From assembly GCA_023374045.1 (NCBI GenBank), contig JAIOTZ010000274.1:1-64000 (forward strand): 64,000 nt of DNA, read 5' to 3'. Of the stretch, positions 10,985-62,579 are shown piece after piece. Under the pieces are notes generated by a model. It saw nothing but the letters and a program-made list of their open reading frames with translations, did no database searches and was not told the DNA's origin. The stretch comes from Limonium bicolor (lineage: Eukaryota > Streptophyta > Magnoliopsida > Caryophyllales > Plumbaginaceae). Made by a program: the position numbers and the translations under genes. Each line of letters begins with the position of its first letter. The stretch's first letter is position 1.

Positions 10985-11124
10985 GCCATACGAGTGTACA
11001 TGCACAACTCGTAGGCCACTCTTAACCCTTAACACTTGTATCCTCTTCTTACCCTCGCGACGGCCGCTTCCTGTTGTACCTGTGTAGTAAAAACAGCCCC
11101 CAAAGGGGGTCAGCACGAATGCTG
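10985..11124 (-). other. Structured LTR end (leader hairpins), element A 5' LTR
   Basis: Copy of 1215-1354: TACGAGT/ACTCGTA stem at 10985-11017, then CCCCC-AAA-GGGGG and CAGCA-CGAA-TGCTG at 11096-11124. The tRNA-like box CGCAGCGGAA is at 10845-10854. Confidence 0.6.
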
Positions 11125-11384
11125 GTACGATCCCCTCATGGCCCCCAAGCTAACGTGGCTACGACGACTAATTGTCGATAGCATGGAGGTTGATTAGATG
11201 CACAATATAATAGTAAGTGCAGTAAACAACAACTCAGATATGAACAATCAAGTTCACACAATGAACGACTTAAATGCGTTCCCTTAATTAGAGAGTTATT
11301 ATTTAACTCCTTAAGTAATGTTCCCTCTAATCTTAGTCCATCCTTATCTCACCTCAATCTTAGTCTTATCTTAATCTTAGAAAC

Positions 11385-11755
11385 AACCATCCTTTAATAA
11401 GGAGTGGATGTAACTTACCTTAATCTGAATAATACAAACCATCCTTTAAAAAGGAATGGCTGCAACTTATCTTAACCTCACCTTAATCTTAATCTTAACT
11501 TAATCTTAATCTTAACGATACAAATCATCCTTTAAAAGGAATGATTGTAACTTAACCAATCTTAGTCTTAACGATACAAATCATCCTTTAAAAAGGAATG
11601 ATTGTAACTTATCTTAATCTTAACTTATCTTAATCTTAATCTTAATAATACAAATCATCCTTTAGAAAGGAATGATTGTAACTCATCTTAACCTTAACTT
11701 ATTCTCAGAATACGAACCGTTCCTGGAGGGGAATGGTTGTAGCCTAAGTCCAAAC
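11385..11755. repeat. Tandem hairpin repeats in (CTTAAT)-rich DNA, 5' LTR copy
   Basis: LTR counterpart of 1615-1975, with the same units and a few single-base differences. Confidence 0.75.
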
Positions 11756-12570
11756 CTGGGATTTAGGTGATCCCACCGCACCATCTTAATGCCACCTACC
11801 CTGGACGGGAATCCAGCGTAGCTGAGCCGGCAACCGGCCCTAGGCTACAAGTCCGAAGACAAGTCCTTAAGCGGAGGGCGGATCTGATTCAGATACCGTC
11901 CCCCTTTTTCCTTAGCATGCATGACCGGAGATCGGTCCCGGGTTTCCTCACTCAAGTTCCAGTTAGTAGTAATCTCAAACCCTGTTTGTCGGTTAACCTC
12001 TTTCGGTTCATATCGTCCCTTATTAGGGGCGTTCCTTAGTCTCACTCAATTCCTTACTAAACATTGGTTAGTAAGTTCTCACGGTATGTTGTGTTAGTTT
12101 TCAAACATCACACAACAATACAATATATATAATATGTTCCGGTTGCATGCTTTATCTTGTTTAGTGAGCACACAAAACAAATAGCACACAAGCCGAGGGA
12201 CACCTCGTTAGCAAGCAGGTCACAAGAGAACTGTACCGTTCACGTTGGTCGTTCGGCTACTTACTCTCTTCCGGAGTCCAAACCCCCAAGTCCTAAAACA
12301 TTCATTCAGTTTTAGGTTGTTAATCACTTAACTTAATATGACTTACTTAACTTGTTTAACTTACTTAATTCCTTAATGATCCCCACCTAACACCTCTTAG
12401 GTCTTACACTTAATCTTACAAACTTAATCTTAAACTTTCAAGTTTATACTTAACTTAACTTAATCTCTTAAGTTCTTAGGGTCTCAATCATTACTACCCT
12501 ACCAAAGGCATACCTTATTACCCATTGCCATTCTTAGAATTCAAAATTTCTTTTTTTTTTTGTTTTTAGG

Positions 12571-12893
12571 CTCAACCGGACTTACCGACCGGACTTGCAA
12601 AGTACATTCCGGTACTCACCCCCACTACACAAAACATGTCACTCCGACCCACTACTCCTACCGCAATCCGGTCCATTCCAGTACCTTTACCGTACAAAAT
12701 TCATGCCCGACCGGACTTGACAAGTCCGGTCCCATGTCCGGTCTATTCCAGAAACATTTTCCCTCACAAACACAAGTCTGACCGGACTTGTAAGTCCGGT
12801 CCCCAAGTCCGGTCGATTCCAGAAACATTCTCCGGTAGTGTAACAGAGCCCGACCGACCTTGCAGTCCGGTCCTAAGGCCGGTCGGCTCTAGA
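12571..12893. repeat. GC-rich palindrome array in LTR, 5' LTR copy of element A
   Basis: Counterpart of 2805-3133. Units after 12705 agree closely, but the second unit is rearranged or replaced (about 12600-12670). Confidence 0.8.
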
Positions 12894-18359: not shown

Positions 18360-18653
18360 GCCGTTAGCCACCCATGTGGCCAACCAGGCCTAACTCTCAT
18401 ACAGTAACGGTCTGATGGACTGGAACAACCGAATACACATTACAAATACTTTACTTAAATCACTTCTTTACTATACCGAGTCTACAATAAATGGATGCCG
18501 ACAACATATTCGATCTTACACTTCTTTCAATACACAAGTAATTAAATCTAACTACCCATGATAACCACCGACCCCGTCCTACACTCAAACGGTCACGTCT
18601 CTGGTGTACCTGCGAATAAAAAACGATGCCCCTAGGGGCTCAGCTTAAAGCTG
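18360..18653 (-). other. Structured LTR end (leader hairpins)
   Basis: First stem GTTAGCCAC-CCAT-GTGGCCAAC framed by GCC and AGGC (18360-18389), with one A.C pair on the + strand. The second set at 18628-18653 is GCCCC-TA-GGGGC and CAGC-TTAAA-GCTG. The tRNA-like box CGCAGCGGAA is at 18323-18332. Confidence 0.65.
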
Positions 18654-23290: not shown

Positions 23291-23634
23291 GCCGCTAGTC
23301 ACCCACGTGACTAACAAGGCTAGCTACACTACTACATGCTATCGGTCTGATGAATTGAACATACCGAGTACTCACACAATGCATTACTTTCCCTTGCATA
23401 CTCAACCATATTTCAATTACAACTCCAATACAATACTATACCGAGTATACTACAATCCTTATATTACCGATACAGTTTGGACTTCCAAATTCGCATTACA
23501 ATACAAGTACAAATCCTATAATTCAACTACCCATGCTTACATAGCAATCCCCGTCCTACTCTCTCGAACGGTGGTCAGCTTTGAATACCTGTAAAAAAAA
23601 AAACGTCGCCCCTAGGGGCTCAGCAAAATTGTTG
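23291..23634 (-). other. Structured LTR end (leader hairpins)
   Basis: First stem GCTAGTCAC-CCAC-GTGACTAAC framed by GCC and AAGGC (23291-23320), with one C.A pair on the + strand. The second set is GCCCC-TA-GGGGC and CAGCAA...TTGTTG (23608-23634). The tRNA-like box CGCAGCGGAT is at 23253-23262. Confidence 0.65.
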
Positions 23635-29900: not shown

Positions 29901-30198
29901 GCCATTACTCGCCCATGCGAGTAAAGAAGCATAAATAAGTAATAATGAACAACACTGACAATATATATACATAACCGCAGTGATAACGAGATACTAACCT
30001 ATACATCCTTCTAAATCCTTAATCAATCTCAATGACAAGTGAGCGTCTAAATTATCCTGATGGTATACAACGTCAATAGCATATTAAACTAACAACCATC
30101 CTAGTTAGGTGAAACTCTACTACCCGGTTCCCGCACTTCGGCTTCTACGGTAATCATCATCTGCACATATGCCATAAAGGCTCAGCGATAAACGCTGA
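29901..30198 (-). other. Structured LTR end (leader hairpins)
   Basis: First stem TTACTCGC-CCAT-GCGAGTAA (29901-29930), all eight pairs complementary but differing from other families at three positions on both sides. The second set is GCC-ATAAA-GGC and CTCAGCG-ATAAA-CGCTGAG (30171-30198). The tRNA-like box CGCAGCGGTA is at 29855-29864. Confidence 0.7.
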
Positions 30199-34575: not shown

Positions 34576-34704
34576 CAACTTTAATCCAAAATCGAACAGC
34601 AGCACATGTAACACCCCTACTATTAATCCTTTACTTACCGTCTAATCATCCTACTTATACGACTACACGCAGTGGAATTTACTACTACTACGGGTGATAC
34701 AACG

Positions 34705-35120
34705 CCGCTAACCGCCCATACAGCTAGCTAGGCTTACACTACTTACAGTCACGGTCTGATGTCTAAATAACACCGAGCTACTACATGACATACCACTTAC
34801 AAAATATCGTATACTTATAATGCTGGATTACCGAGTATCAAAGCATAGTTAATTACATCCCTTTCAAGTCTACCAAAAATAAAGAGTTCCCACATACTAC
34901 TCATCTATACCAATTCCCAAACCTTTCAGTATCCAAAAGGGTGTACCCCATGGTACACCGGCTAAACAAAAAGGCCTATAGCCATGTACAACTTAGTACA
35001 CCATTCACAATTCATTAATTACAATAAAAAAGAAATCATCTTGAGCTCACAAGTCTTTACCCTTCTCGAGCACCTGTAAAATATTAAAAACGGTGCCCCA
35101 AGGGGCTCAGGAAAAAGCTG
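34705..35120 (-). other. Structured LTR end (leader hairpins)
   Basis: First stem GCTAACCGC-CCAT-ACAGCTAGC framed by GCC and TAGGC (34705-34734). Three of nine pairs are A.C on the + strand, so G.U in a minus-strand RNA. The second set near 35095-35120 is GCCCC-AA-GGGGC and CAG...GCTG. The tRNA-like box is CGCAGTGGAA (34668-34677). Confidence 0.6.
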
Positions 35121-36505: not shown

Positions 36506-36733
36506 TGCAGTTTTGTAAATTATGTATGTTTTTGAACTTGTTTCAACTCCAAACTTCTACCAATCTCTTCCCTAATATTCCTACATCTAATCTAGCATAT
36601 TTTGACATTGATTAAGCACCTTAAACTAACCTAATCCAACCTATATGTAACACCCCAACTACATCCATACATTTAACAACACAACGCAGCGGAAACTTAA
36701 CTCCTCCCATTACTTATTCCAATGGTGTTACAC

Positions 36734-37059
36734 GCCGTTAACCACCCACGTGGCTAACAAGGCTAATACATACACATTTGTATCGGTCTGATGGACTAGA
36801 TTCACGAGCAACTACACAATACATTCCTCATTCCATTTTCAACATTTATTATATACATACATTCCCACTGTACCGAGTATTTACAAACTACTGCCGATAA
36901 CAATTTCGGTCTTACTACGCCTAACATACTCACGCCATTTAAATGGCTACCCATGTACAAACATCTGCCCCGTCCTACTCTCGAACGGCTTCCAGCTCCT
37001 TGTACCTGAAATAGAAAAGGAGAGAAAGGGTGGCCCCCAAGGGGCTCAGCACCTTGCTG
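36734..37059 (-). other. Structured LTR end (leader hairpins), element B 3' LTR
   Basis: GTTAACCAC-CCAC-GTGGCTAAC framed by GCC and AAGGC (36734-36763), with one A.C pair on the + strand. Then GCCCC-CAA-GGGGC and CAGCA-CCT-TGCTG (37033-37059). Confidence 0.65.
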
Positions 37060-38605
37060 GTATGGTAATCCCGCAGCCCACATGCTACCGGGCCACGCAC
37101 AACTAATTGTCGTCTTAGCATGCAGTTGATTATATTTAAATCATGCATACAAGCCATAGACATACAACACACAACATTTCGCCTCGATGGGCTCAACCTA
37201 TAACCAACACATCCACACTTAACCAATCATCCAATGATTCCTTAAACCCTAGAATGGCTCTCCTCCAAACGGAGCTACTCCCTTAACGAACGACATGTAC
37301 CCATTAATCGGGTTATCCTTAAATGCCTCTTGTCACAAACTGGGATTCATTTCCATGATCCACACATTCCATATCCTACAACATAATTCATCCTACACAT
37401 AACAAAACATAACAACCCTTTCTTGTTTCGACGTACACATGACAACATTGCATTCATTTAAAACATCCAATATTTATACATATATACCAAAGCATAGCAA
37501 GGTAATTTGCTTAGCACAACTACAATACATATCACCTCGAGAACGGTTCACATTAAGATCCTTCCACCATAGTTAGTACATACCATGAGCATAGAGATTG
37601 TTGCCAAACTCATACCAAGCTCGTTAATTACCTCATCACCATCCTGTTATTTGAACGGTTGACTTAAACCCAAGGTGTGTCGGATATAGTGATCCCAAGC
37701 ACACCAAACAACACAGTATGCCCCTGTGGCCCGACGTGAGTCAGTAAACTAGCTTGGATAAGCTAAGGGAAGGTTGAAACCAAATTGGAATACCACCTAA
37801 ACATACACCAAGAGAGCCGAACCGGATATGATAACGACTCCCATCCATCACACGCGTGGCTGGAACAACCGGACTCCTCACCCCCCATTAGCCCATATAC
37901 TCTTATAATTAAGTAGTTAGAGATCCATTATGGAGCCTACCACATCCACACACCATACGGTACCATAACCGAGTTAAGCACACAAGGGAGGTTCACACAC
38001 TTGCATACAACAACAATATCCAACTAACTCACACATAGCCGTGGTTAGCACATTCCCAATGTTCGGGTCGTTAACCCCGAATACCGATCACTCATGTGTT
38101 CCTAGATTTGGTTAGCTAAGGTTTAACACATATTTGAGGTTAATGGTATCGGAGGCCAAATTCGCCACATAAATGAATTACTATAAACTCATTACATGTT
38201 TTATCTTACAAGGTGGCAAACACTCAAGAAAACATATTGGCATACAAGCCGGTGTAATCCGGTAGGACACAGGTTGCAAGAAAACCATACCTGTCACCGG
38301 AGTCCACTTTACCACGTCCACTTATATTCTTCGAGCGATTCTCGAACAACTGTTAACATCACATGTGTTTTTATTAACATCGGGGTTTGCTTGATTATTT
38401 AGTGTCCAAAGCTTATAATTTCTCCCCGTTAACTTAGTTACATAACTTCACTTTTTAACTTGTTTTACTTTTACATTTTGATACAACTTTTCACCCACTT
38501 AGTTGCCATTTAAACTCACCTAACATGTCCTTAACAACCTTATAACATCATTACCTATCAATCCCCATCACCTCATATCATTTCATAACCTTAAACCACA
38601 TTTTT

Positions 38606-38870
38606 GGTCCGACCGACCCACAGTCCGACCCACAGCTGGGTCGGTCCATTACAGAGCCCTTTTACTTCCTTATAAACATGCCCGTCCGACCCACGTCCGA
38701 CTCACTCGACTGGGTCGGACCATGTGCGAACATTTTTCTTCCTTTGAAACTTGACCGACCGACCCATGTCCGACCCACCCTTTTGGGTCGGACCTTTACC
38801 GAACACTTTCTTAACATCTAACAGAGGCTCGACCGACCCAAAACTGGGTCGGACCCCTGGGTCGGTCGCT
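38606..38870. repeat. GC-rich palindrome array in LTR (GTCCGACCCA family), element B 3' LTR
   Basis: Four units of about 70 bp with CCGACCGACCCA / GTCCGACCCA and the complement TGGGTCGGWC, each followed by a spacer such as CATTACAGAGCCCTTTT or TTTACCGAACACTTTC. Confidence 0.85.
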
Positions 38871-41260
38871 TTCTAAACTTACCCAAACTTTACCAATTCT
38901 TTACCAAACTTCTCCTAAGGCCTCTTAATGTTTCCTAACAACATTTGGCACTTTAACAAACTTAAGATATCCTTAAACACTCACAAAACTCTTTTTTCTA
39001 ATTCCTTAAACCTTTACTTATATCTTCACAAAATTCCTAACACTTACAATGTTTTCTCCTTAAGATTTCTAAGTGGTAATTCACCAACAATGACCACTAT
39101 ACCAAGGTGTTTCCTCTACACCTTAACATCATCTCCCAAGCATCTTCTCTTTCACAACTCCTTAAATTCCTTTCTCAAAACCCTACCTAAACATCATTCT
39201 CTCCTTATTCATCAACATGACCTATACCTTAAACCAACTCCTCCATGGCTTAAATACATTCTTAAAACACACATTGAATTCCTAGAACTTCCAAGACAAC
39301 ACCTAAATCCTTGCATCACTCTAAATCACCATAATACATGTTTTCTTCTCAAGTAAACATTCATTCACCTTTAACCCTTCCTAGTTCACTAAAACTCACT
39401 TACAACACTTAGAACTTCTTACACATTTTCCCAAATTTGGCCATAGCTTCTCTTGTATATACTCACATCCAACCACTTAGGTTTTCACCTTACTTCATTA
39501 AAGAACACCTAAAATCCATCAACACACTTTATACACAAACTTCACACATTAAGCACTACATCACAATATAGTGCATAACTTAAATTGCTTGGCACTTAGG
39601 CCCTTAATTGCATGGCTCTTAAACACTGAATTTCCCACATAATAATGCCTTGACCTGCAAATACACCCAACAATTCATATGCCCTTAATAAACTCCTTGA
39701 GAGCATTTTTACTAGCTCATTCACCATTGGCTCCTTAGATCATTTTAATAAGCAATATAAGCTCATTTCTCCTAAGGCATTAAACCACACTGAGATAGTA
39801 TGTTTACCTCTTTTCCACTCAAACTTCTTTCTTGTTTCCTTATAAACCGGTAAGGCATTTCCTTCCTTGCCAACAACTAAACAATATACCAACATTGAAA
39901 TGAGTATATAAGCTTTAAGCTTTATCTCATTGTAAACCCTAATTACATATATTATCTTAAGGTATTAACATGATTGTTTTACCTTGGAATGGAAAGAGAG
40001 CTTGAATATATATCAAGAGAGGACTCCACCAAGCCCTTGGAAGATTCAAATGAGGCTAAAACAAGCAAGGTAAAAACACCATGGTGAGGTTAATTTTCGG
40101 CCATGTACTAAAAGGAGAGGAAACTTGATTTTTTTTTTTGAGATTCCTTACCTAGAAGCAAAGGAGAACAATAATATGTGAAAAGGTGAGCTCAAGCTCC
40201 ATCAATGGTGAATCTCCTTGGCACCGAATTTAAGTTCTTGAAGATTTGAAAAGGTAGAAGTGTAGAGCTTGTCTCCAACTAGAAGAATGGTGGTCTTGGA
40301 ATTGAATTTGGACCATGGAGCTAGAGTTACAAGCATTCAAGATGGAAACAATGGTGGTGTTGGTGTTGCTGTATCAGCTCGTAAAAGAGAGCAAGAAGGG
40401 AGGCTGGGGTCGTGTGAATGAAGGAGGAAAGGAGAATGAAGATAGAACTTGCTTTAACAATTTTGTATTAAAAGGTAAGTTTCTCCTTTTACCTTCCTAC
40501 CCCTTCCTTTCCTTAATTGCTTTTTACATGGTGGTGACTCACCTTCATAAAAACCGGCCACCATTTAGCTAGAAGGGTGTTTTGGTCTTTGTTGACCAAC
40601 TTAATCACTTACAACATTATATGTTACAAACTAGTTATAAAAATCACTATTCACCAATAACAAGGCACATAGAAGTGAAATTTTTGATTTCCCATTGATA
40701 TAGCCACCCAAATGTGATACTATATAGTACATGTTAATTAAAGAGTAATGATGGACATTTAGCCATTCAAATCATTTACAAGGCAATTTTTTCAAAAACG
40801 TGCTTTAAGACTCCTTAAGCACATTTTGCGTTTTAACTTGTTTCCAAGCTTGGTTTCCTTTGGTAATTGAGTTAATATGTTCATTAACATATAATTAAGG
40901 CATAGGTATGACCATTAGGTCTTATACACCTTTATCCCAAGCTTAGAGCACATTTTGGCCCATATTGACCTTAAGGTATTTATTCGTTTTTTGTTTGGTT
41001 TCATTGTCTACCAAAGTTTCCTAAGGACTTAATTAGCCTTATAAAGTCATAATTAAACATTATCAAGTCTTGGTAGGCTCTTTGGGTCCTAGCCAAGTTC
41101 ACTCCAAGCTTAGAGCATGTTTTTGCTCAAACCGTGTCTTAGTGTTTTATTGTGTTTTACCATGGTTTAAATGATTCATTTATGTTTCTAAGGCACTTTT
41201 TAGCCTTTAAATACCATAGTTTAACATTTACACAACATACCAAGGTTTGGGGTATTTCAA

Positions 41261-41277
41261 TCTACCCCCCTTAAAAG
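41261..41277 (-). promoter_or_regulatory. Polypurine tract of element B
   Basis: The minus strand reads TTTTAAGGGGGGTAGAT directly before the LTR start. Confidence 0.9.
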
Positions 41278-42465
41278 AACTTCGTCCGAAGTTCACATTT
41301 CCTCGCATCATTGGATTAGAATACGGGAATTACTTATAGCCATAAAACTTCTATTACCAACCACCCTTTACATCCAACCTCGGACTTAATGGTCCGGGCA
41401 ACATATCCACATCATTTGGACACATAGGTCCCCATAACATAACAGTCTTTAGACACATAGGTCTATGTAACACCACACATTTAGACTCATAGGCCTTGAT
41501 AGTATACACTTTAGGAAATCCAAGTCAAAACAACATTCATTACACATACCACACAACATGTCAGAGCATGTATAGCAATCAAAAATATCCTTGATATACA
41601 CTATGATCCCGCAGAACCCGGTCGCGATGGACCCTTCCGTCCCCGTGCCTTTGGGAAATTAAAACAATCACTTAAATTTAAATTTCCTTGTGAGGTTAAG
41701 TATAAGAAGATCTTTTATTCAAAATATTAATCGATTGTTTGAAAATACCAATTGAAATTCCTTTTGAAAACACCACACAACTCCAAGTCCGATTTATGCT
41801 CTTTGTATCTTTCTTAATATAGTTATTTATGACCACTTACAGGGAGCTTCAAGAGTCATCCAACCCTGATGTGATCAGCATCAGTGTTGAACTATCTTTC
41901 CACCCCAATTTGTGTTCGGCTTCCCTTGATCTCATGATAATCAAGTTTCACCTCCCACCTCATTTTCAACAACAACTAATTCAAGCATGTACCATTTTCT
42001 ATCTTTGAATCCTTCTAGTCATAATCATTACATCTCAAGGGATAGAACTCCGTCTATCAATCATCACCCAAATCCAACTTAATTCAAGTTACCTAGGGAA
42101 TTTAATTCTCACTAGGTTCTATGTCGGTCTCATAACCCTTCATAAATCACAACATTGTATATATATACATATATCTTTTATCAAAATACAATATATGGTT
42201 TACATATATGCACCATCGGGGTTTTAGTTCCCCGGGAGTTTCTTTACTCCCTTCCACTTGTACTCTCACACACCACTGTTAACAAAATAAACACACTTCC
42301 CACAATGGTATTCGCCTCTTCTGTGCGCAATTACCACAATTTACCCACAAATAAATGCGTATGTTTATATAACACACGCGCCAACCATCATAACAATTCA
42401 TTTTGTGCTATGCACAACCCCATTCACGTACACTTGTACGGTAAAACACACTAAGTGGTTTTGCG

Positions 42466-42500
42466 CTCTACCCCCCTTAAAAGGGATTACGCCCACGTAA
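42466..42500 (-). promoter_or_regulatory. Second, internal polypurine-like tract plus hairpin, element B
   Basis: The minus strand reads CCTTTTAAGGGGGGTAGAG about 1.2 kb inside the true polypurine tract. ATTACGCCCACGTAAT follows at 42485 onward. Same arrangement as 6801-6836. Confidence 0.55.
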
Positions 42501-45084
42501 TCAATCACTGAGCATTAGCTTAATATATTCTGCCGTCGTGAAGTATTTTAACTTCCACGCGGTCTATTACACAATGGATTCTGATTAGAGGATCTTAGCC
42601 ATAATGGCGGTTTAGTCCCTAAACCAAGAATTCGCATTGGAGTTGTAACTCATAACCGGTTTCGGTCCTGGCCTGTGAGGCTTTTAGGCATTGATAACTA
42701 GCCATCCATTTATATTCACAACGTATACCCGGTACCTGACGCATGGGCTCACTGGCCTCTGTTGCGCAACCCTGATAATTATAGAGCTGGTTGCCCCATT
42801 CGTTACTGTTAATGTATTGTACATCTCCAATGTATTACCCTTATCTAGGTAACAATGGTTTCTCAACCGGCGCATGGTATCTCTTACCTTGAGCGAATTC
42901 GGTGAGCTCCACAATTTCCCATCCACTTCTCCAATAGCTTACCGCGTAAACTACTATGTAATTCACAATGATTGACTTAATTCTACCGACTTACTGTCGG
43001 TTGAGATTGAGCTACTACCTAGTGTGTAGTGCTCTCTCAGCTATTTACAACATTTGGGGTATATTTCATACCGACCTTTGGTATTTAGTGTTACTGTAAT
43101 TATTTACTGTTAATCATGTTTCCACATTTGGTTTTGTACATGTATTCTTTCATTCCTGCGGCCTTGCATTACCTATGCATCGGCCATTACAACATTATTC
43201 CTCCACAATTACCATGCTTCTGATTCCTAGCTATCCCACTTGATCATTACTGCGCAAGTGCAATACCAAAACACTCAGTCATACAGAGTGCAGAGGCGTA
43301 AACCCTTGACAGCAACTCTCTCATGCGATTGCGATAGGAATTTTCACTGAAATCCTTATCATCTAACACTTGCCACCGGTTTACTGCTCGGTTCATTTGC
43401 TATCACTTACTGTTGTATCTCCACTGGGGTTAACTCACAACTCTGCTTACTCACCATTTTATCATCTAACCATCCTCATACAACGGTCGCTTATTGCGCA
43501 CCGTGTCCTTACTCATTATACAACATCAACTTATACTGCATCCGCTATTATATTAGCTTCTGCTATCACGCTGGGTTTATCTGGCCACTTATTTGGCTGA
43601 TTTTTGAATATACTACTATTTTTCCCTTGAGCGTTGTTCGCTATACATTTAGCTTCACACACCTATGGTGATTGCTATCAAGTTATCACACTTCCTGCGT
43701 ACACAACTGGTACGAGCACTTCCTTTCGTGTTATTTTATTTAAATCACCCTGGGGTAATGACAACGTGGTCCTTCCTCCACATATCTCTTGTACTTGATT
43801 CACATAACTACCGCTTCTGCGGTCTGACAATATCGAGAGATATCCCCACTCTTAGTGTAGTGGTTCTCTTACCACTTTAACCACATATACAATATAAACT
43901 TCTACAATCAATCGAATTTATGTAACATATCTTGCTTATGGTTTATAAGCCTTATCCGCCTTGAGCTGGGCTCGTTGTAGGCTGTCCACACATATGTACT
44001 TCTTTGTACAACATTACATGTTTAGAGGTTGTAGTGGGCTTCATGACAAGGTCGTTGCATTCCGTTTCCTTTCATGGGATGCCCCTTAGGTTTGTCAGTC
44101 CGTCTCCTGACAACCTATGTCTAAACTGGGTGTTAATTTCAACCCTTGTGTTTCTGTCATGTCATTTTGTGCAACAATTGTTGATGCGAACACCCCTCAA
44201 GGATTGCTCCTGGGTGTTGCTAAGTTATCATTTACATCTAGTTCACACTTATTGGTACATTCCGTTAGGCACGCCTTCTTGCGTTCTTAACTGACTTATT
44301 ATCCTCTTCTGTGAAGATCAACACTTCCCGGTAGTGTAGGTACTCATTCTGGGAGTTTCATCCCGTTCTTTGCACATTAATGTGTCCACATTAGGCATCT
44401 GCCTTGCCCTGCTTTTCAGCTATCATGTTTATCCCTGGGGATCCTTAAGTCACATTAGCTGTCTTTACATTCAGTTAGTGCACTTCGCACCTCCTGACTC
44501 TTAAACATTTCCTTGAAAGGAATTCACTAATTCCTTTAGTCTCGTTAACTTAACTGAGTTCCTTTACTTCAAGCATTCCTTGTATTTTCTAGCTCCTGTT
44601 GATTTATACTGCTGACCGTAGACGGAGTCGACTACTTCCCGTGTTTCGGACTCCACTCGTATACATATATGGGGTATCATACTGATACATTACTACTTAC
44701 CCAACTAACCTATAAGTAGGTCTGTCAGGCCCACATGCTCCTATCGGAGTGCGGTCGTCCCACAACACAGTTGGTACACTTGTAGTGTCCGTCACACGCC
44801 TAGGTGAAGTATTCTGTTGTCAACTCCCTTATATTGTCCCGTGACAATATTCATTCCTTACTTCTCGAACTTAATCAAGGGAAAGTTTGTCCACTGTTGT
44901 ATCTTTATCAACTGCCCTTGGTTTTACTTAGCCGAGTCTAGCTTCTTGCTGACTGGTGTACTTCCAATTACAGAGGTTAGGCTAACAGGCCCTTCCACTG
45001 TTATGATGTTCACATTTAACTTCATGGTACTTTTCCAAGTACTTTGTAGTGGTTATAAATTTCCCGAACAGCCCTGTTATAGCA

Positions 45085-45104
45085 GCACTTGCTATGGCAA
45101 GTGC
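45085..45104. repeat. Conserved hairpin GCACTTGC-TATG-GCAAGTGC, element B
   Basis: Identical to 9824-9843 of element A, including adjacent bases, although much of the surrounding text has diverged. Confidence 0.7.
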
Positions 45105-45920
45105 GCCATGCTAATTGGCTATCGGTTTGACACCTACCGATTGTGGTATTGTTTTGACCCATATTGTCATCAGTGGCCTTGTTGGCCCTCACTGATCTTA
45201 CTGCCTTGATAAATACTCCTCTAGGTGACTTCTCACTGTATTCACATAGTAGTTATCAACTGGGGTGTCTCCCATTCTTGGAGTCCCCTTTACTTAGTAT
45301 CGTATCCTCTTTATAGCCCGTTCCACGCACTTGTCGTGGTTACTGAGACTTATCTCCTGTTTGGGCACTATGTTGTAGTTCCTTGACGGTTGGTATACCG
45401 TTGGTGTTTTATTTATCAACTGTGGTCCCGTAGACACTCGTCTCGGGTTTTATTAATCCATTTCTTGCCTGTTGCACGGTTAGTGCGTTGCAAGCTGGTT
45501 ATACTCGACTGCTCTGCATGTCGACCCAGGTTGCCGGAAATTCTATTCTCTTATACACAAGGTTCTTCACTCTTCGATATTTAATGCGGTTAACATCATT
45601 TAGATGGAGACCGCCTCCGGGATTCCTAATTTTCGGGATCTACCGTATGACAGGTTCTCCGTACCTTAAAGGTATTTAATAGCAGCCAGATCGGGTATTC
45701 CCGAGTAAGAGTGGACTTCCATCTCTCTGGCGTTGTTTCCCAAGTTATAAAAAAAACAGGGATTGTGGAGGGCGGGAAGGATATAGTAGGTTTCCAGTAT
45801 TCACTGGTAGTTCCTTACTAGCGTAACTCTCACGCTATCACTCAACCCTTAACCCAAAGTACTTAAATCCTAACTCGGTACTTCCTAAGCTCGGTAATTC
45901 AGTCATCAGAGCGATACTTC

Positions 45921-45932
45921 GCTCTGATACCA
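45921..45932 (-). promoter_or_regulatory. Primer binding site (initiator tRNA-Met) of element B
   Basis: The minus strand reads TGGTATCAGAGC, 5 nt from the LTR. It overlaps the hairpin ATCAGAGCG-ATACTT-CGCTCTGAT (45905-45928). Confidence 0.93.
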
Positions 45933-46023
45933 CTTTTTGTAACACCCCAACTACATCCATACATTAACAACACAAGCAGCGGAAACTTAACTCCTCCCAT
46001 TACTTATTCCAATGGTGTTACAC

Positions 46024-46346
46024 GCCGTTAACCACCCACGTGGCTAACAAGGCTAATACATACACATTTGTATCGGTCTGATGGACTAGATTCACGAGCA
46101 ACTACACAATACATTCCTCATTCCATTTTCAACATTTATTATATCATACTCCCACTGTACCGAGTATTTACAAACTACTGCCGATAACAATTCGGTCTTA
46201 CTACGCCTAACATACTCACGCCATTTAAATGGCTACCCATGTACAAACATCTGCCCCGTCCTACTCTCGAACGGCTTCCAGCTCCTTGTACCTGAAATAG
46301 AAAAGGAGAGAAAGGGTGGCCCCCAAGGGGCTCAGCACCTTTGCTG
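46024..46346 (-). other. Structured LTR end (leader hairpins), element B 5' LTR
   Basis: Copy of 36734-37059: GTTAACCAC-CCAC-GTGGCTAAC (46024-46053), GCCCC-CAA-GGGGC and CAGCA...TGCTG (46319-46346). Confidence 0.65.
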
Positions 46347-47885
46347 GTATGGTAATCCCGCAGCCCACATGCTACCGGGCCACGCACAACTAATTGTCGT
46401 CTTAGCATGCAGTTGATTATATTTAAATCATGCATACAAGCCATAGACATACAACACACAACATTTCGCCTCGATGGGCTCAACCTATAACCAACACATC
46501 CACACTTAACCAATCATCCAATGATTCCTTAAACCCTAGAATGGCTCTCCTCCAAACGGAGCTACTCCCTTAACGAACGACATGTACCCATTAATCGGGT
46601 TATCCTTAAATGCCTCTTGTCACAAACTGGGATTCATTTCCATGATCCACACATTCCATATCCTACAACATATTCATCCTACACATAACAAAACATAACA
46701 ACCCTTTCTTGTTTCGACGTACACATGACAACATTGCATTCATTTAAAAATCCAATATTTATACATATACCAAAGCATAGCAAGGTAATTTGCTTAGCAC
46801 AACACAATACATATCACCTCGAGAACGGTTCACATTAAGATCCTTCCACCATAGTTAGTACATACCATGAGCATAGAGATTTTGCCAAACTCATACCAAG
46901 CTCGTTAATTACCTCATCACCATCCTGTTATTTGAACGGTTGACTTAAACCCAAGGTGTGTCGGATATAGTGATCCCAAGCACACCAAACAAACAGTATG
47001 CCCCTGTGGCCCGACGTGAGTCAGTAAACTAGCTTTGGATAAGCTAAGGGAAGGTTGAAACCAAATTGGAATACCACCTAAACATACACCAAGAGAGCCG
47101 AACCGGATATGATAACGACTCCCATCCATCACACGCGTGGCCGGAACAACCGGACTCCTCACCCCCCATTAGCCCATATACTCTTATAAATAAGTAGTTA
47201 GAGATCCATTATGGAGCCTACCACATCCACACACCATACGGTACCATAACCGAGTTAAGCACACAAGGGAGGTTCACACACTTGCATACAACAACAATAT
47301 CCAACTAACTCACACATAGCCGTGGTTAGCACATTCCCAATGTTCGGGTCGTTAACCCCGAATACCGATCACTCATGTGTTCCTAGATTTGGTTAGCTAA
47401 GGTTTAACACATATTTGAGGTTAATGGTATCGGAGGCCAAATTCGCCACATAAATGAATTACTATAAACTCATACATGTTTTATCTTACAAGGTGGCAAA
47501 CACTCAAGAAAACATATTGGCATACAAGCCGGTGTAATCCGGTAGGACACAGGTTGCAAGAAAACCATACCTGTCACCGGAGTCCACTTTACCACGTCCA
47601 CTTATATTCTTCGAGCGATTCTCGACTAACTGTTAACATCACATGTGTTTTTATTAACATCGGGGTTTGCTTGATTATTTAGTGTCCAAAGCTTATAATT
47701 TTTCCCCGTTAACTTAGTTACATAACTTCACTTTTTAACTTGTTTTACTTTTACATTTTGATACAACTTTTCACCCACTTAGTTGCCATTTAAACTCACC
47801 TAACATGTCCTTAACAACCTTATAACATCATTACCTATCAATCCCCATCACCTCATATCATTTCATAACCTTAAACCACATTTTT

Positions 47886-48150
47886 GGTCCGACCGACCCA
47901 CAGTCCGACCCACAGCTGGGTCGGTCCATTACAGAGCCCTTTTACTTCCTTATAAACATGCCCGTCCGACCCACGTCCGACTCACTCGACTGGGTCGGAC
48001 CATGTGCGAACATTTTTCTTCCTTTGAAACTTGACCGACCGACCCATGTCCGACCCACCCTTTTGGGTCGGACCTTTACCGAACACTTTCTAACATCTAA
48101 CAGAGGCTCGACCGACCCAAAACTGGGTCGGACCCCTGGGTCGGTCGCTT
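47886..48150. repeat. GC-rich palindrome array in LTR, element B 5' LTR
   Basis: Counterpart of 38606-38870; practically identical. Confidence 0.85.
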
Positions 48151-51100
48151 TCTAAACTTACCCAAACTTTACCAATTCTTTACCAAACTTCTCCTAAGGC
48201 CTCTTAATGTTTCCTAACAACATTTGGCACTTTAACAAACTTAAGATATCCTTAAACACTCACAAAACTCTTTTTTCTAATTCCTTAAACCTTTACTTAT
48301 ATCTTCACAAAATTCCTAACACTTACAATGTTTTCTCCTTAAGATTTCTAAGTGGTAATTCACCAACAATGACCACTATACCAAGGTGTTTCCTCTACAC
48401 CTTAACATCATCTCCCAAGCATCTTCTCTTTCACAACTCCTTAAATTCCTTTCTCAAAACCCTACCTAAACATCATTCTCTCCTTATTCATCAACATGAC
48501 CTATACCTTAAACCAACTCCTCCATGGCTTAAATACATTCTTAAAACACATTGAATTCCTAGAACTTCCAAGACAACACCTAAATCCTTGCATCACTCTA
48601 AATCACCATAATACATGTTTTCTTCTCAAGTAAACATTCATTCACCTTTAACCCTTCCTAGTTCACTAAAACTCACTTACAACACTTAGAACTTCTTACA
48701 CATTTTCCCAAATTTGGCCATAGCTTCTCTTGTATATACTCACATCCAACCACTTAGGTTTTCACCTTACTTCATTAAAGAACACCTAAAATCCATCAAC
48801 ACACTTTATACACAAACTTCACACATTAAGCACTACATCACAATATAGTGCATAACTTAAATTGCTTGGCACTTAGGCCCTTAATTGCATGGCTCTTAAA
48901 CACTGAATTTCCCACATAATAATGCCTTTGACCTGCAAATACACCCAACAATTCATATGCCCTTAATAAACTCCTTGAGAGCATTTTTACTAGCTCATTC
49001 ACCATTGGCTCCTTAGATCATTTTAATAAGCAATATAAGCTCATTTCTCCTAAGGCATTAAACCACACTGAGATAGTATGTTTACCTCTTTTCCACTCAA
49101 ACTTCTTTCTTGTTTCCTTATAAACCGGTAAGGCATTTCCTTCCTTGCCAACAACTAAACAATATACCAACATTGAAATGAGTATATAAGCTTTAAGCTT
49201 TATCTCATTGTAAACCCTAGTTACATATATTATCTTAAGGTATTAACATGATTGTTTTACCTTGGAATGGAAAGAGAGCTTGAATATATATCAAGAGAGG
49301 ACTCCACCAAGCCCTTGGAAGATTCAAATGAGGCTAAAACAAGCAAGGTAAAAACACCATGGTGAGGTTAATTTTCGGCCATGTACTAAAAGGAGAGGAA
49401 ACTTGATTTTTTTTTGAGATTCCTTACCTAGAAGCAAAGGAGAACAATAATATGTGAAAAGGTGAGCTCAAGCTCCATCAATGGTGAATCTCCTTGGCAC
49501 CGAATTTAAGTTCTTGAAGATTTGAAAAGGTAGAAGTGTAGAGCTTGCTCCAACTAGAAGAATGGTGGTCTTGGAATTGAATTTGGACCATGGAGCTAGG
49601 AGTTACAAGCATTCAAAGATGGAAACAATGGTGGTGTTGGTGTTGCTGTATCAGCTCGTAAAAGAGAGCAAGAAGGGAGGCTGGGGTCGTGTGAAATGAA
49701 GGAGGAAAGGAGAATGAAGATAGAACTTGCTTTAACAAGATATTTGTATTAAAAGGTAAGTTTCTCCTTTTTACCTTCCTACCCTTCCTTTCCTTAATTG
49801 CTTTTTACATGGTGGTGACTCACCTTCATAAAAACCGGCCACCATTTAGCTAGAAGGGTGTTTTGGTCTTTGTTGACCAACTTAATCACTTACAACATTA
49901 TATGTTACAAACTAGTTATAAAATCACTATTCACCAATAACAAGGCACATAGAAGTGAAATTTTTGATTTCCCATTGATATAGCCACCCAAATGTGATAC
50001 TATATAGTACACATGTTAATTAAAGAGTAATGATGGACATTTAGCCATTCAAAACTCATTTACAAGGCAATTTTTCAAAAACGTGCTTTAAGACTCCTTA
50101 AAGCACATTTTGCGTTTTAACTTGTTTCCAAGCTTGGTTTCCTTTGGTAATTGATTTAATATGTTCATTAACATATAATTAAGGCATAGGTATGACCATT
50201 AGGTCTTATACACCTTTATCCCAAGCTTAGAGCACATTTTGGCCCATATTGACCTTAAGGTATTTATTCGTTTTTTGTTTGGTTTCATTGTCTACCAAAG
50301 TTTCCTAAGGACTTAATTAGCCTTATAAAGTCATAATTAAACATTATCAAGTCTTGGTAGGCTCTTTGGGTGCCTAGCCAAGTTCACTCCAAGCTTAGAG
50401 CATGTTTTTTGCTCAAACCGTGTCTTAGTGTTTTATTGTGTTTTACCATGGTTTAAATGATTCATTTATGTTTCTAAGGCACTTTTTAGCCTTTAAATAC
50501 CATAGTTTAACATTTACACAACATACCAAGGTTTGGGGTATTTCACTATATCTTTATCTGTCAACTTACAAGTTTTCCACTGATAATTTTCTCATGTTAC
50601 AGTTTTTGTTCTTCTACTAATGCTACAGATCTTCCTATTCTTCTTCCCACTAATTAAATGACTCTCAAACTAGCCTAACTTAGTTAAACACTTCCCATTA
50701 CACCATTTCCAACTCTACTCCACTACATCTCTTCCTCCTGTTACAAACCAAAGTGAAAACCTCATTTTTTCCTTCTCTGCAAACCTCTTTGTTCTTTCTC
50801 TTCTAACAGCACTCAAGTCTCTAAATTCCTAACCAAATTTTGACAGAGTTTCCCTATATTTCTAAGTGTTCTCACCACATAATTTTGCTCACTCAACACA
50901 GTTCACAACCTGTTCAATATATGCATTATTTCCACACAACTTCTAACACTTACTGCACACTCAATACTCATACTTAGCATTTTGTTTATTTGTTTTCAAA
51001 AGCTTCAAACTACAAATATAGTTGACATCAATATACTCATTCCCTTCCTACTGCTACGGTGGTTTTAAACCATTGCTAAAGCAATATACTTATACATACA

Positions 51101-55695: not shown

Positions 55696-55784
55696 TGTAA
55701 CACCCCTACGACGCCCCTACCAACTACCAAAATCGCAGCGGAAATAACCAACCAAACAATAACTAAACGCTTTGGTGTTACAAC

Positions 55785-56120
55785 GCCGTTAACCACCCAC
55801 GTGGTTAACTAGGCAGCATAAATACAAGTGTATCGGTCTGATGATCAGACTCCCGAGCATAGAACCTAACATCCATATATATACATAACCAACCATACCG
55901 AGTATTTATTTTACATCACAACTTCCAACTGTAACACCCACCACAGTTTAACGAACGGTACCAAAATGTAATGCCTCGGGAGCACAAGCGCTTCCCGGGC
56001 TCAACAACCAAAACAACCAAAAGTACATCATCGACCTAGGATCTAGAGCCACTCCGCTTCTTCGATCCTCATCCTGCAATAAAATATGGAGCCCCCGAGG
56101 GGGGTCAGCAACCTTTGCTG
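55785..56120 (-). other. Structured LTR end (leader hairpins)
   Basis: A perfect 9-bp stem GTTAACCAC-CCAC-GTGGTTAAC framed by GCC and TAGGC (55785-55814). The second set is CCCCC-GA-GGGGG and CAGCAA-CCT-TTGCTG (56091-56120). The tRNA-like box CGCAGCGGAA is at 55734-55743. Confidence 0.7.
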
Positions 56121-57062
56121 GTATGGTTAACGCGCAGCCCATCGGCTACCGGGATACGCGCAACCAATTGTCATGATAACATGGCATTCATTTTAAAACA
56201 TCCAACATATATATATATATACCATAGCATAGCAAGGGAATTTGCATAGCACAACATCAATACGTAACACCATAAAATCGGTTCTCACAAGGAACCTTCC
56301 ACCATAGTTAGTATACATAGTGAGCCTAGAGATTATTGCCAATCCCATGTTAAGCTCGTTACCAACCTCGTTACCGTCCATATAGAACGGTTAACTTATA
56401 CCCAAGGTGTGTCGGATATAGTAATCCCAAGCACACCGAAAACAACATTTGTATGCCCCTGTGGCCCGACGTGAGTCAGTAACTAGCTTTGGATAAGCTA
56501 AGGGAAGGTAGAAACCAAATTGGAATACCACCTATACATACACCAAGAGAGCCGAACCGGATATGATATCGACTCCCGTCCATCACACGCGTGGCCGGAA
56601 CAACCGGACTCCTCACTCCCCCCGATTAGCACTTGTTAGTGATCACCATATTTTGTTAAGTCACATACAAGCAAATATTTAGGTCTTGTTAGACAACCAA
56701 GGGAAAGGAGTCACAACCTTACAACATCTTAATGTAAACAACTGTAAACTCTTTTCATGCCTTAATCTTATAAGGTCGTAACACACAGAAAAGCAACAAA
56801 ACCCAAGCCGGTGTAAACCGGTAGGCAAAGACTGCAAGAAAACCATACCTTGGTCCTTGCCTCGATTGATTTCCACCTTGAGAGAATCCTAAACACATTA
56901 GTAACGTCGGTTAATTATTTATTTAACTTCAAACTTACTAAGTATTTAACATGATTGTATGACATGTTTTAATGTCTATTCTACCCTTGGTTACCTTCAC
57001 TATACACCCTAGGGTTAACTACATAAGTCACATTCTTTTCTGTTTTTTTTTTACAAGTTTAG

Positions 57063-57400
57063 GTCCGACCGACCTTACCGACCGAACTTACCCAAGTTCG
57101 GTCGATTCCAGAACACATTTCCATCAAAATTTTCTACTCCGACCGACCTTGTAAGTTCGGTCGCATGTTCGGTCTATTCCAGAGAGTTTCTTCCCTTTGA
57201 AAATTTAGCCCGACCGAACTTGCCAAGTCCGGTCCTATGTTCGGTCGTTTCCAGTAACTCAATCCGTACACAAAATACAAGGCCGACCGACCTTGCAAGT
57301 CTGGTCCCCAAGGTCGGTCCATTCCAGAAGCCAATTCTCGCAGGGTAAACTGGGCTCGACCGAACTTGCAAGTTCGGTCGCAAGTTCGGTCTGCCCCAGA
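57063..57400. repeat. GC-rich palindrome array in LTR (GACCGAACTT family)
   Basis: Five units of about 65 bp: CCGACCGAMCTT...AAGTTCGGTC, a second TGTTCGGTC, then a spacer of the type CATTCCAGAAGCCAATT. Confidence 0.85.
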
Positions 57401-59636
57401 CCTTTGTTTTCCTTTTCACATTCAACTCCAAACTTCACCCCATATAACCTAGTACTCCCTAACCTCATTTGGGCACTTTAAACACACCTTAAGACATCCT
57501 TAAACACTCATAAAACTCATTTTCTAATTCCTTAAACCTTTACTTATATCTTCACAAAATTTCTAACACTTACAATGTTTTCTCCTAGTTTTTCAAGTGG
57601 TGTTTCATACCTATGATAACTACTATCCCAAAAGCTTTCTCCTTATTTTAACATCATCTCCCAAGCATCATCTCTCACAACTAACTCCTTATATCCTTCT
57701 TGAAAATTCTTTTCCAAGTTTACACTTTCTCCTTATTTACCAAAGTTTGCCTAAGTATTTACCTAAGTCCCAAGGTGACTTTGGTACTTACTAAAACCTC
57801 AAGCTCATGCCTAAGTCCTTGTTACACTCTAGAACACTTAAGACATTATACTTTCACTTGTAAAACACCTAGTCATTTCCTAACACCTCTAACTCACCAA
57901 ACCTTATGTAAACACTTAGAACTTCTTGCTTCTTACCTAAATTTTGACATGGATTCCCCTAGAACATTTCTAAGTCTAAACACTTTGTTTTCTCCATTAA
58001 ACACACAAGAACACCTAGAATCAACAAGAACACTCTCATACACAACTTCACCAAATTCACACTACATTTCAATATAGTGCATAATTTAGATTGCATGGCA
58101 CTTAGGCCCTTAAAATGCATGGCTCTTAGGCCCTTAAAGTGCTTAAATCATAAACACTGAATTTCCACAATATATATGCCTTTAACCTGCGATGACATAC
58201 AACAAGACATATGTTATTTTACTAGTCTCCTTGAGAACATTTACTAGGTCATTCACCATTTGCTCTTTAGGTAGTTTTAACAAGCATTTATAAGCTCATT
58301 TCTCCTAAGGCATTAAACAACATTTGGTTAGTAGATTTACCTCTTTTCCAACAACTCCTTTCTTGTTTCCTTATAAAAACCGGTAGGGTATTTGATTCCT
58401 TGTCAAGTTCTAAACAATATACAAACATTATAATGAGTATTCAAGCTATAAGCTTCATCTCATTGCAAACCCTAATTTTACATTGTTTCAAAAACATTAA
58501 TGTAGTTGTTTTACCTTGATCTTTGAAGAGAGTTTGAATATATAACAAGAGAGGACTCCACCTAGTCCATGAAGAGTTGGAATGAAGCTAAAACAAAGTC
58601 ACACAAAGAGCTACATCAATGTGTATTTTCGGTCAAGGTAAAAACATGGAGGAAACATGATTTTTCTTTGAGATTCCTTACCTAGAAGCAAAGGAGAGTA
58701 ATAATATGTCAAAATACAAGCTCAAGCTCCTTCAATGGTGGAACTCCATGGCACCGAAATGGGGCTCTTGAAGTTTTGAGAAGATAGGAATGAAGAGCTT
58801 GATGAGAGGAAGAGATTGGTGGTGTTTGTTTTTGATTTGGACAAGTGAGCCAGATTTTACAAGTGATCAAAGCTAGGGTTTTAATGGTGGTGGTGGTATT
58901 ACCGTGAGAGAACAGCAAGAAGGGAGGAAGGAGAAGTTAGAACCGTGTGAAATGAAGAAGGGAAATGAGAATGAAGATAGAATTTGCTTTAAGAAGATAT
59001 TTATGCTTATAAAGTAAAAGTAGTTATATTAGTCATCTTTATTTGTTTAACAAAATAACAAGTGAGTGGTGAGTCACCACACTTAAGAAACCGGCCCCCT
59101 TTATTAATATGAGGGTACTTTAGTCTTTGTTTGTCAATTTAATTACTTAATACAACATATGTTATAAACTAGCTTATAAAAAGCACTATTCACCAAAACA
59201 AGGCACTTAGAAGTGAAATTTTTGATTTCCCATTAATATAGCCACCCAAATGTGATACTATATATTACACATATATTTAAGAGTAATGATGGACATTTAG
59301 CCACTCAAAACTCATTTACAAGACAATTTTTCAAAAATGTGCTTTAAGACTTCTTAAAGCACATTTTGTGTTTTAACTTGTTTTCAAGCTTGGTTTTCTT
59401 TGGTAATTGATTTAATATGTTCATTAATAATATATAAGGTCTTGGTAAGTTCATTAGGTCTTACCCAAGCTTATTCCAAGCTTAGAGCACATTTTAGCTC
59501 TTATTGACTTTAAAGCACATTTTGTGTTTTCTTTTGTTTAAATTTGTTTACTAATGTTTCTAAGACTCTTTTTAGTCTTAATAAATCATGTTCTAATGTT
59601 TAACCAACATACCAAGGTTTGGGGTATTTCACTAGA

Positions 59637-59957: not shown

Positions 59958-62579
59958 TGTAACATCCCAACTCTAAATTCTGTATTTAACTTCTAATGAC
60001 CTCCAACATAATCAACAAACCACAACGGAAATAACTGGAACAGATTTGGTGTTACCGCCGCCAGCCACCCACGTGACTGACAAGGCCTTCCCTCCCAACA
60101 TGTTACGGTCCGAATGACTGGAAATACATTACAATCTCCTTAAATTACATACCGAGTCACTAAGTCTTAATTAATACAACCCACTTCTAAATACATCTTA
60201 ACAAAATCAAAACAAAACCCAAGTCCTCAGTGTACCCCGCCTACTCTCGGTCGGTCTGATCTCCTTCGCGTACCTGTGAATGATTGGCCATGAAATGGCT
60301 CAGCAAAACGAATTGCTGGTATGGGATTGTGTAGCCCACGTGTGACCGGGCTACAATCAACTAATTGGTCAGATGAACATGCAGTTAATTTATTAACAGA
60401 CATGCATATCTAATAAAACACTGTAAACACTCAGCATGCCAATCAATAGTCCACAAACAATCCACAAGTAATCCTACTCAACGGGATCAAATCATCACAA
60501 CAGGGTTAGCCTTCTTTCATCTCAATTAGTACAATGCTCTCATTGGTATTGTTTATGTTCAAATATTTTCCCTTACATTCCACACAATGGGATTGTGCAT
60601 ATACTTTTAAAGTTCTCAAGACAGTCTGACTTTGGAGACTGTTTACAGTTTTAACTTAGGGCAGGTAGCCCGTACCAAGTGAACGCTACGCATCACAACC
60701 CAATAATCTGTGCCGATAGTGGCATATATACATAAATATATATACATATAACTCACCCCTGTCAATGATCATATGCCAAAGACGGGGAGCCAATCGCTTG
60801 GCTCCGGGGCAGCGCAGTCCGTAGACGCACTCCAACGAGGTTGGTCCTATTATAGATACCACCCTCTCAATCCAATAAACACGTGTGCCCGGTCTACCCG
60901 GATCCTCTCGTCCCCCCAATAGTTAGCGTTAGTCAAATTCTCATAATCCCTTCCTGTGTTACTTCGCGACATCACATTGACGTCGTTAACAATTAATAAG
61001 GTAGTTATAAATTTATATCACACTCATACACATCCATCCTCTCAATCTCCTTGAGTTCTCCATTCGTAATACAATTCATTCCCTCGTATATTAGGCTACT
61101 CTACCGCGTAGTTAGCAGCACAACAAATACCAAGACGGGTTAATCACCACACAATTACAAGCAACAATAACAGTCCAGTTTACATGCTTTAATCTTGGGG
61201 GTCATTTTTCACACAACAACTAGAACACAAGCCGAGTATAACTCGGTAGCAAGAAGACTACAAGAAACCATACCTTGGCCTAATAGACGTCTGTCTAATC
61301 TTGTCTAGCGATCCCAACTATCCAATATGTATTCCGCCTATAATTAAGTTAATTGAGAACGTTAATTATTTATTACCCTCATACGAATTAATCTCAGTGC
61401 GAGCGGGATTATTTATTCCACTTTCATCATTTTATGTACATTACGTAATCATTCTCTTAATCGTAATTTACTCTTCATACCTTAATCACGTATATTGTTA
61501 AGACATTATTTCATGTATAATAAATCTTCCTTCATAATCCTCTTTATTCCACCTCAATTTATATTCCCTTCCACATATCTTTTGATTAATTAAATATTAA
61601 TCTCTAGTATTATTCAATACTTCATAAATTGATCTTTATTATATAAATATAATTTTCATTTCTCATTTAATTGTACCAAAGTTTTTCCTCAAATTTTATC
61701 CTTACCTCCAAACAACTCCTTAAGTTTATAAATTCCAAATTTCCCCCCTTAAGTTTCGGTTAGTTACCATTCTCACCTATAAATTTTATGAACTTCACAA
61801 TTTTCCTCCAATTACATTTTATTGTATAGTTTATATCCCACTTTGTAAAATTTCATTTTCCTCCTCAAGTTTTCGGTAATTACAAGGGTGGCCCTAGTAT
61901 TTTCGGTCCTCACCCTAAGTTTACCTTAATTACAATTTCACCTCAAAATGTTATATTATTTGTATTCCATGCTATATTTCATATTTAAGTTAGGTTTTGA
62001 TACTAATTCTAAGTTTGGTCAATACTTTGACTAGTATTGTATTTAATCATTTATTACCCTTATACACCTGCACTTTACATTATTTCAGGTTCCATTCTTT
62101 CAAATTCTACAACTTACAATTTAGTCCCACTTATTCCTTAAACTTTTATTTCTTCATTAATAACCAAGTTAATCCTACAATTTTCGGCCTTATTATTATA
62201 AATGCCCATACTTGTTTTAAATTGCTTTAATGTCACAAAAACTTTACAATATACAAATCTAGCTCATTGTTTATTGTATAAATTTTAACATAAGCTCGTA
62301 GTGATATAAATTACTCCGAAGCCCCCAACATTTTCGGCAATCACCAAAACTCCCCCATAGTTTTACTTAATCATTTTTTTAATGTTATAAAAACCTTATA
62401 ATATCCAAGTTTAATTAACTACATATCGTACAAACCTTAACATAATTCCTTAATGAAATAAAGTACACTTAACTCATTGATATTTTCCGGTTTTTATAAA
62501 AAGTATACTATACTTTTCAGATTTTACATTTTTAACCCCGAAACTTTATAAATTGTCATTTCAAATTCTTAACACTTAT
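59958..62579 (-). mobile_element. Partial Del/Tekay-like LTR, cut by a plus-strand element
   Basis: Starts TGTAACATCCC (a C-to-T change in the terminus). It carries the leader modules but no GGGGTATTTCA end before 62580, where another element begins. The rest presumably lies beyond the window. It is AT-rich, with no frame and no palindrome array that I can see. Confidence 0.7.
60057..60318 (-). other. Structured LTR end (leader hairpins)
   Basis: GCCAGCCAC-CCAC-GTGACTGAC framed by GCC and AAGGC (60057-60086), with two C.A pairs on the + strand. The second set at 60285-60318 is GCCAT-GAA-ATGGC, two pairs swapped relative to GCCCC/GGGGC, and CAGCAA...TTGCTG. The box is CACAACGGAA (60021-60030), two changes from the common form. 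Confidence 0.6.

Follow-up and report, generated by a model that had tools for sequence, protein, structure and literature searches.

The locus analysed here, a stretch of 64,000 nt from Limonium bicolor (contig JAIOTZ010000274.1 of assembly GCA_023374045.1, a 2.9-Gb genome; hereafter, the window), raises the question of whether a hairpin that recurs near the ends of its long terminal repeats (LTRs) acts at the RNA level and, if so, in which capacity. Plant genomes are largely LTR retrotransposons, and cis-acting leader RNA is, to our knowledge, known mainly from yeast elements and retroviruses. An earlier note on this DNA had proposed that such a hairpin is kept by compensatory changes, is under selection in the sense RNA and falls in the 5′ leader, where packaging, dimerisation or priming signals sit.

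The sense strand of the elements in the window is the minus strand, on which the LTRs run from TGAAATACCCC to GGGGTGTTACA. The TGTAACA end named in the earlier note corresponds, in the sense orientation, to the LTR's 3′ terminus, GGGGTGTTACA. Two elements showed the two LTRs and the target-site duplication expected of an LTR retrotransposon: element A (36646..50545, minus strand), with two 4.6-kb LTRs, a 4.7-kb internal part and the duplication CTATA, and element B (1013..15440, minus strand), with two 4.6-kb LTRs and the duplication GTTGG, which does not carry the long hairpin described below. A solo LTR (55696..59631, minus strand) is flanked by the duplication CTAGA. Three further LTR insertions on the minus strand span 23203-29490 (duplication ATTTA), 29795-55240 (GTATG) and 34607-52312 (GCACA); the last two duplications were read by eye, and ATTTA with the boundary at 29490 was preferred among six candidates produced by the script because of the matching LTR end. 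The insertions 29795-55240 and 34607-52312 and element A are nested. All six insertions lie on the same strand and have LTRs of about 4 kb or longer. Between the LTRs of A and B (about 5 kb in each), no sense-strand frame of at least 110 codons was found from stop to stop, and the longest sense-strand frames in these elements, of 112 codons, are located in the LTRs of A. Judged by stop-to-stop frames, the internal parts of A and B are thus without coding capacity, as in large retrotransposon derivatives (LARDs), which are long, non-coding and non-autonomous. On the plus strand, a 409-aa frame (62774-64000) that runs off the edge of the window matches a retroviral-type protease (PF08284) and a reverse transcriptase (PF00078).

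In both A and B, the 5′ LTR is directly followed by AAAAG-TGGTATCAGAGC. The 12-nt primer binding site TGGTATCAGAGC (45921..45932 in A and 10768..10779 in B, minus strand) is complementary to the 3′ end of tRNA-iMet, the host gene of which ends in GCTCTGATA. Since both complete elements have this primer site immediately behind the LTR, the hairpin is assigned to U5, and it is the U5 position that would place it in the leader RNA. Its placement upstream of the primer site, as given in the earlier note, was borne out; two of the ten ends compared (10785 and 45938) are followed by the AAAAG-linked site. According to prediction, the primer site is itself part of a 9–12-bp hairpin, the 3′ arm of which, CGCTCTGA, copies the 3′ strand of the tRNA. 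In element A, this predicted hairpin (45904..45929, minus strand; 11-bp stem, outer T.G pair, loop AGTA) holds most of the primer site, and in element B (10753..10774, minus strand) the innermost pair is swapped relative to A. The primer-site hairpin was kept in 13 of 13 leaders picked by pattern, a set without L023 (another LTR type) and L014 (damaged site); its innermost pair is A-T in some leaders and T-A in others.

Ten LTR ends of this type were compared in the window, and the best hairpins were sought within 330 nt of each. A 30-nt hairpin was present in eight of the ten LTR 3′ ends, in seven distinct sequences, with its stem ending 87–110 nt short of the LTR terminus; the distance from hairpin to primer site is 91 nt in element A. 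In the sense orientation, the copy at 55785..55814 (minus strand, in LTR 55696-59631) reads GCC-TA-GTTAACCAC-GUGG-GTGGTTAAC-GGC, with a bulge of two bases after the GCC, the loop GUGG between the arms of a 9-bp stem, and GGC at the far side. The other copies, all on the minus strand, are located at 23291..23320 (LTR ending at 23203), 29901..29930 (LTR ending at 29795; loop AUGG and the most divergent stem of the window), 60057..60086 (LTR ending at 59958), 18360..18389 (LTR ending at 18261; loop AUGG), 34704..34733 (LTR ending at 34607; loop AUGG), 36734..36763 (3′ LTR of A) and 46024..46053 (5′ LTR of A; an identical twin of 36734). The hairpin at 55785-55814 had been located exactly, and those at 23291, 29901, 60057, 18360, 36734 and 34704 were recovered as well, along with the twin at 46024. 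The claim that every minus-strand LTR carries the hairpin was wrong, as it holds for eight of the ten ends; the pair of element B (1013 and 10785) had no homologous hairpin within the 330 nt searched per end. The structure at 1215, previously counted as a family member, proved to be a distinct one, with a 7-bp stem and an 11-nt loop, 204–206 nt from the LTR end. The loop described as CCCA(C/T) is in sense the 4-nt RUGG, closed by a C-G or a U.G pair.

A covariance model built from the eight copies was run on the whole window with filters off. It scored those eight at 41–49 bits, and of its six further matches five were opposite-strand reads of these hairpins (at most 15.5 bits), while the sixth was a site at 51235 (11.1 bits, E=1). 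Rfam gave 0 matches at the gathering score in the window. When 150-nt ends were folded in isolation, the hairpin was found in the minimum-energy structure of six of the seven hairpin-bearing ends, the exception being the 34607 end; the folding energy of such ends was unremarkable in six of eight (z above −2) and fell below −2 in the other two.

Across the seven distinct window rows, 98.8% of the cells pair in sense and 88.1% on the other strand, and compensatory changes were apparent, with five of the 12 pairs changed on both sides. The imperfect pairs in sense comprised nine G.U, no A.C and one U.U. The earlier note had counted eight imperfect pairs, all A.C on the plus strand; the direction was right, and the count is nine in the seven distinct rows. 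It had also named absent covariation and equal numbers of A.C and G.T pairs as results that would speak against it, and both points were addressed with a larger set. The additional sample, 200 kb in 20 stretches of 10 kb, came from contig C1 of this genome, within its first 39 Mb. Of the 21 matches that the model found there, 15 were hairpins, five were opposite-strand reads and one had E=2. The resulting alignment (A3) contained 21 copies, seven from the window and 14 from the sample, of which 19 were distinct; one match (L031) was extended from 22 to 30 nt, the copy at 46024 was left out as the same as 36734, and L022:6236-6263, with an unbulged stem, was excluded for that reason. Of the 226 cells in the 19 distinct rows, 96.5% are paired; seven of the 12 pairs are changed on both sides, and both-side changes occupy 20 cells, compared with 4.6 in shuffles. 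The covariation score of these rows, which are related by descent, was 0.389, against 0.228 in shuffles and no more than 0.150 in slid controls, and it exceeded all 500 shuffles and every slid control. This is the covariation above controls that is looked for in a conserved structured RNA, with 14 of the 21 rows having been found with the structure model, which rewards pairing. The imbalance of imperfect pairs persisted, with 18 G.U, three A.C and five others in sense (two-sided binomial p=0.0015 for 18 against 3; when pair positions are counted, 11 against 3 and p=0.057), and this excess of G.U over A.C agrees with the proposed mark of selection on the sense RNA. A model-free sample was formed from 24 exact GGGGTGTTACA ends with 170 nt upstream, taken from the window and the 200 kb. 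An unbroken stem of at least 8 bp (G.U allowed) with RUGG in its loop, 80–114 nt from the end, was detected in 15 of these 24 ends, compared with 1.15% of shuffled ends (0.0115 per sequence). These data indicate that the hairpin is real and behaves as RNA of the sense (minus) strand of the elements.

The loop is strongly conserved. RUGGG was found in 16 of the 19 distinct A3 rows; U16 and G17 are constant in all 19, as are stem columns 1, 21 and 24, and G18 and G19 are each present in 18. The first loop position is G in 11 rows, A in six, T in one and a gap in one. The stems diverge at 29901 and in L031 and L022, with pairing and loop kept. In the whole genome, the exact 30-mer of 55785 occurs 2,720 times, and one exact stem with any loop was found at 20,772 places, the reversed control at none. 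Among the 50 matches listed of these 20,772, with the GG strand taken as sense, 39 had GUGG, seven had AUGG and four had GAGG (positions 695528, 959380, 968703 and 1418483 of C1 in G000). Decayed hairpin copies also exist (for example, L032, L020:7165 and L025), and the same primer site is found without the long hairpin in element B, in its relatives L019, L029 and L032, and in L026. In the family of B, L019, L029 and L032, a 4-bp hairpin (GACC-GUGGCAA-GGUC) is located 86–88 nt from the LTR end, which is about the distance of the long hairpin. The RUGG hairpin of element B was dropped as evidence, such 4-bp hairpins being present in 22.8% of shuffled ends.

Two other features were considered. 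Right after the hairpin, UGUAACACC mirrors the LTR terminus GGUGUUACA in several copies (for example, at 55696-55704). A second U5 helix formed by the two is contiguous over at least 8 bp in nine of 21 copies, and it is not claimed here because it is interrupted in the others, with no compensating changes seen. A CATCAGACCG block that shares ATCAGA with the primer site was too short to claim.

Between the hairpin and the primer site lies TTCCGCTGCG, the exact complement of letters 11–20 (D arm) of tRNA-iMet. On the minus strand, this word was found at 55734..55743 (LTR 55696-59631), at 36685..36694 (3′ LTR of A) and at 10845..10854 (5′ LTR of B; twin at 1075-1084), and the 5′ LTR of A has TTCCGCTGC at 45976..45984. 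Its part CCGCTGCG has eight exact copies in the window, seven at ends with single copies and one at the 10785 twin, and no exact copy outside LTR ends in the window. Near forms are CCACTGCG at the 34607 end, which contains a mismatch, and CCGCTGCT at the 45938 end; the 59958 end has CCGTTGTG, which would still pair by way of two G.U pairs. In several copies and families the word ends in A. The tRNA-iMet sequence used was confirmed in this genome: its stretch from D arm to anticodon has 43 exact matches, and the full gene, read in four cases, agrees with it in every letter. In the 200-kb sample, TCCGCTGC or its G.U variant CCGCTGTG was located upstream of seven of the eight primer sites, the eighth (L023) belonging to another LTR type.

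An exact D-arm complement of at least 8 nt was present in 23 of the 24 model-free LTR ends and in 0.21% of shuffles (0.0021). Because LTR ends are homologous, these 23 matches are not independent, and shuffling the tRNA with the LTRs kept is therefore the fairer control. The shuffled-LTR null is moreover too lenient, because human Lys tRNA, used as a control, also beats it: one 7-nt word of this tRNA occurs in four of eight families, above 300 of 300 shuffled LTR sets. For two human control tRNAs, Lys included, no 8-nt word was found in more than one of the eight families. When the tRNA was shuffled against unchanged LTRs, at least four of the eight families shared a 10-nt complement in 0 of 3000 trials; at least six of the eight shared one of 8 nt, as they do with the real tRNA, in 24 of 3000. 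At the level of sequence, these elements thus have the D-arm complementarity that would be expected of an extended primer contact of the Ty1/Ty3 kind. In the consensus predicted by RNAalifold for 13 leaders, CCGCU forms a shorter pairing, internal to the leader, with the AGUGG that opens the primer site, and this pairing could explain part of the conservation of the D-arm word.

Our preferred reading, in which we have about even confidence, is that in large, mostly non-coding LTR retrotransposons these features form a U5 module that serves primer-tRNA loading, packaging or both. The hairpin would be an RNA element of the leader that acts in cis from within U5, and the leader may grip tRNA-iMet at two or more places, pairing its 12-nt primer site with the acceptor end of the tRNA and TTCCGCTGCG with the D arm. 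This grip on acceptor end and D arm is proposed by analogy with the D-arm contact that Ty1 and Ty3 make with the same primer tRNA. The hairpin, in turn, may help to build or load the initiation complex, through tRNA placement and/or Gag recruitment. Priming and packaging thus remain for the hairpin among the functions suggested previously; dimerisation through a palindrome in the loop was rejected, since the AUGG and GUGG alleles keep no single palindrome. Several observations run counter to the U5 module: the 34607 copy has a mismatch in the D-arm word and lacks the hairpin in its predicted fold, several copies end the word in A, the folding energy is unremarkable in six of eight ends, element B, L019, L029, L032 and L026 share the primer site without the long hairpin, and the further plant-like family described below has only TTCCGC/CTTCCGC and no such hairpin.

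Among the alternatives, the one that survives best is that the hairpin serves packaging by Gag recognition and that the D-arm word is a separate matter, which we consider possible but doubtful. Retroviral nucleocapsids bind exposed G in hairpin loops, and the exposed G of this tetraloop would be bound by the nucleocapsid of an autonomous partner's Gag. Such recognition would explain why non-coding elements with otherwise different LTRs retain the hairpin, and it agrees with a loop that is always R-U/A-G-G among the 50 matches listed of 20,772, GAGG loops suiting Gag recognition equally. Elements A and B, given that their longest frames have only 112 codons, would need packaging in trans. However, element B is complete, with its target duplication, yet has no long hairpin, and the hairpin holds its place relative to the primer site, both of which count against this reading.

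The same loop could instead kiss the anticodon loop of tRNA-iMet, with RUGGG pairing with CCCAU in the manner of the HIV-1 A-rich loop. We regard this as unlikely. Five letters are complementary, either base at the R position (G in 11 rows, A in six) pairs with U, and the tRNA loop CCCATAA was confirmed in this genome; furthermore, stable use of another primer by HIV-1 is reported to have needed changes in both the primer site and the A-loop (PMC13191261). On the other hand, a 5-nt match is weak, the four GAGG loops among the 50 matches listed lose the U-A pair, and the constancy of U16 and G17 is matched by that of the three stem columns, while element B offers only GUGG in a 4-bp hairpin of the kind common in shuffled ends. 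The most elaborate arrangement, a three-point hold in which the primer site takes the acceptor end, the 10-nt U5 word the D arm and the covarying hairpin the anticodon loop, the loop acting as an AUG/GUG codon mimic, is speculative, and we would not expect it to prove correct.

It is less probable again that the hairpin is an inherited structure that serves no present function, or a mere U5 spacer; all copies come from related LTRs and some have decayed, but pairing and loop stay where the stems diverge (29901, L031 and L022). Two readings at other levels are highly improbable. The palindrome as a transcription-factor site in the LTR promoter would accord with CACGTG, the G-box, in nine of the 19 distinct rows, but this sequence is missing from the other ten, the compensated pairs fall outside any such box, and the G.U/A.C imbalance is unexpected of a DNA palindrome. 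Equally hard to credit is a minimal upstream reading frame. Of 20 hairpins whose loop region contains an RTGG word, 17 show a start, two codons and a stop; however, 12 of the 20 begin with GUG instead of AUG, the stop falls within the stem, where pairing accounts for it, and A and B have no long frame downstream.

With tens of thousands of natural copies of the hairpin and D-arm complement in one genome, primer choice is directly testable, as is the mobilisation of non-coding elements by coding ones. The D-arm word, kept ahead of the primer site in almost every LTR end examined, is moreover a candidate target of tRNA-derived small RNAs.

The U5 complement of the tRNA-iMet D arm in plant LTR elements is new here, D-arm contacts being known for Ty1 and Ty3. 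Among the open-access records listed in searches, none described complements of the D arm or covarying hairpins in U5 for plant LTR elements, a silence that is weak evidence of novelty because most subscription papers lay outside the search. A scan of viral contigs gave no usable relative, and a scan of genome contigs gave six (L001–L006) in bacterial assemblies, five actinobacterial and one from Geminicoccus. In these six, which are probably contamination, the LTR end and the tRNA-iMet primer site belong to a single further plant-like LTR family, in which only TTCCGC/CTTCCGC words and no such hairpin were seen.

The elements resemble plant LARDs in having 4.6-kb LTRs around an internal part with no long frames. 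The conservation of their LTR ends is like that in the LTR models of Benachenhou et al. (2013; PMC3601003), a study that describes conserved LTR ends, notes that stem-loops favour conservation in both arms and leaves plant Metaviridae LTRs unmodelled for length variation. In HIV-1, the A-rich loop interacts with the anticodon loop of the primer (PMC13191261); like that loop and the primer activation signal, the U5 features described here would lie in the leader upstream of the primer site, but the tRNA and the sequence are different and the anticodon match is 5 nt and not strict. A further parallel is with Ty1 and Ty3, in which the D arm of tRNA-iMet is reported to contact the element RNA (PMC5371799). 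The primer tRNA is the same, and an added D-arm contact is suggested here from complementarity; in Ty3 the D arm interacts with U3, whereas the complement described here is located in U5 and precedes the primer site.
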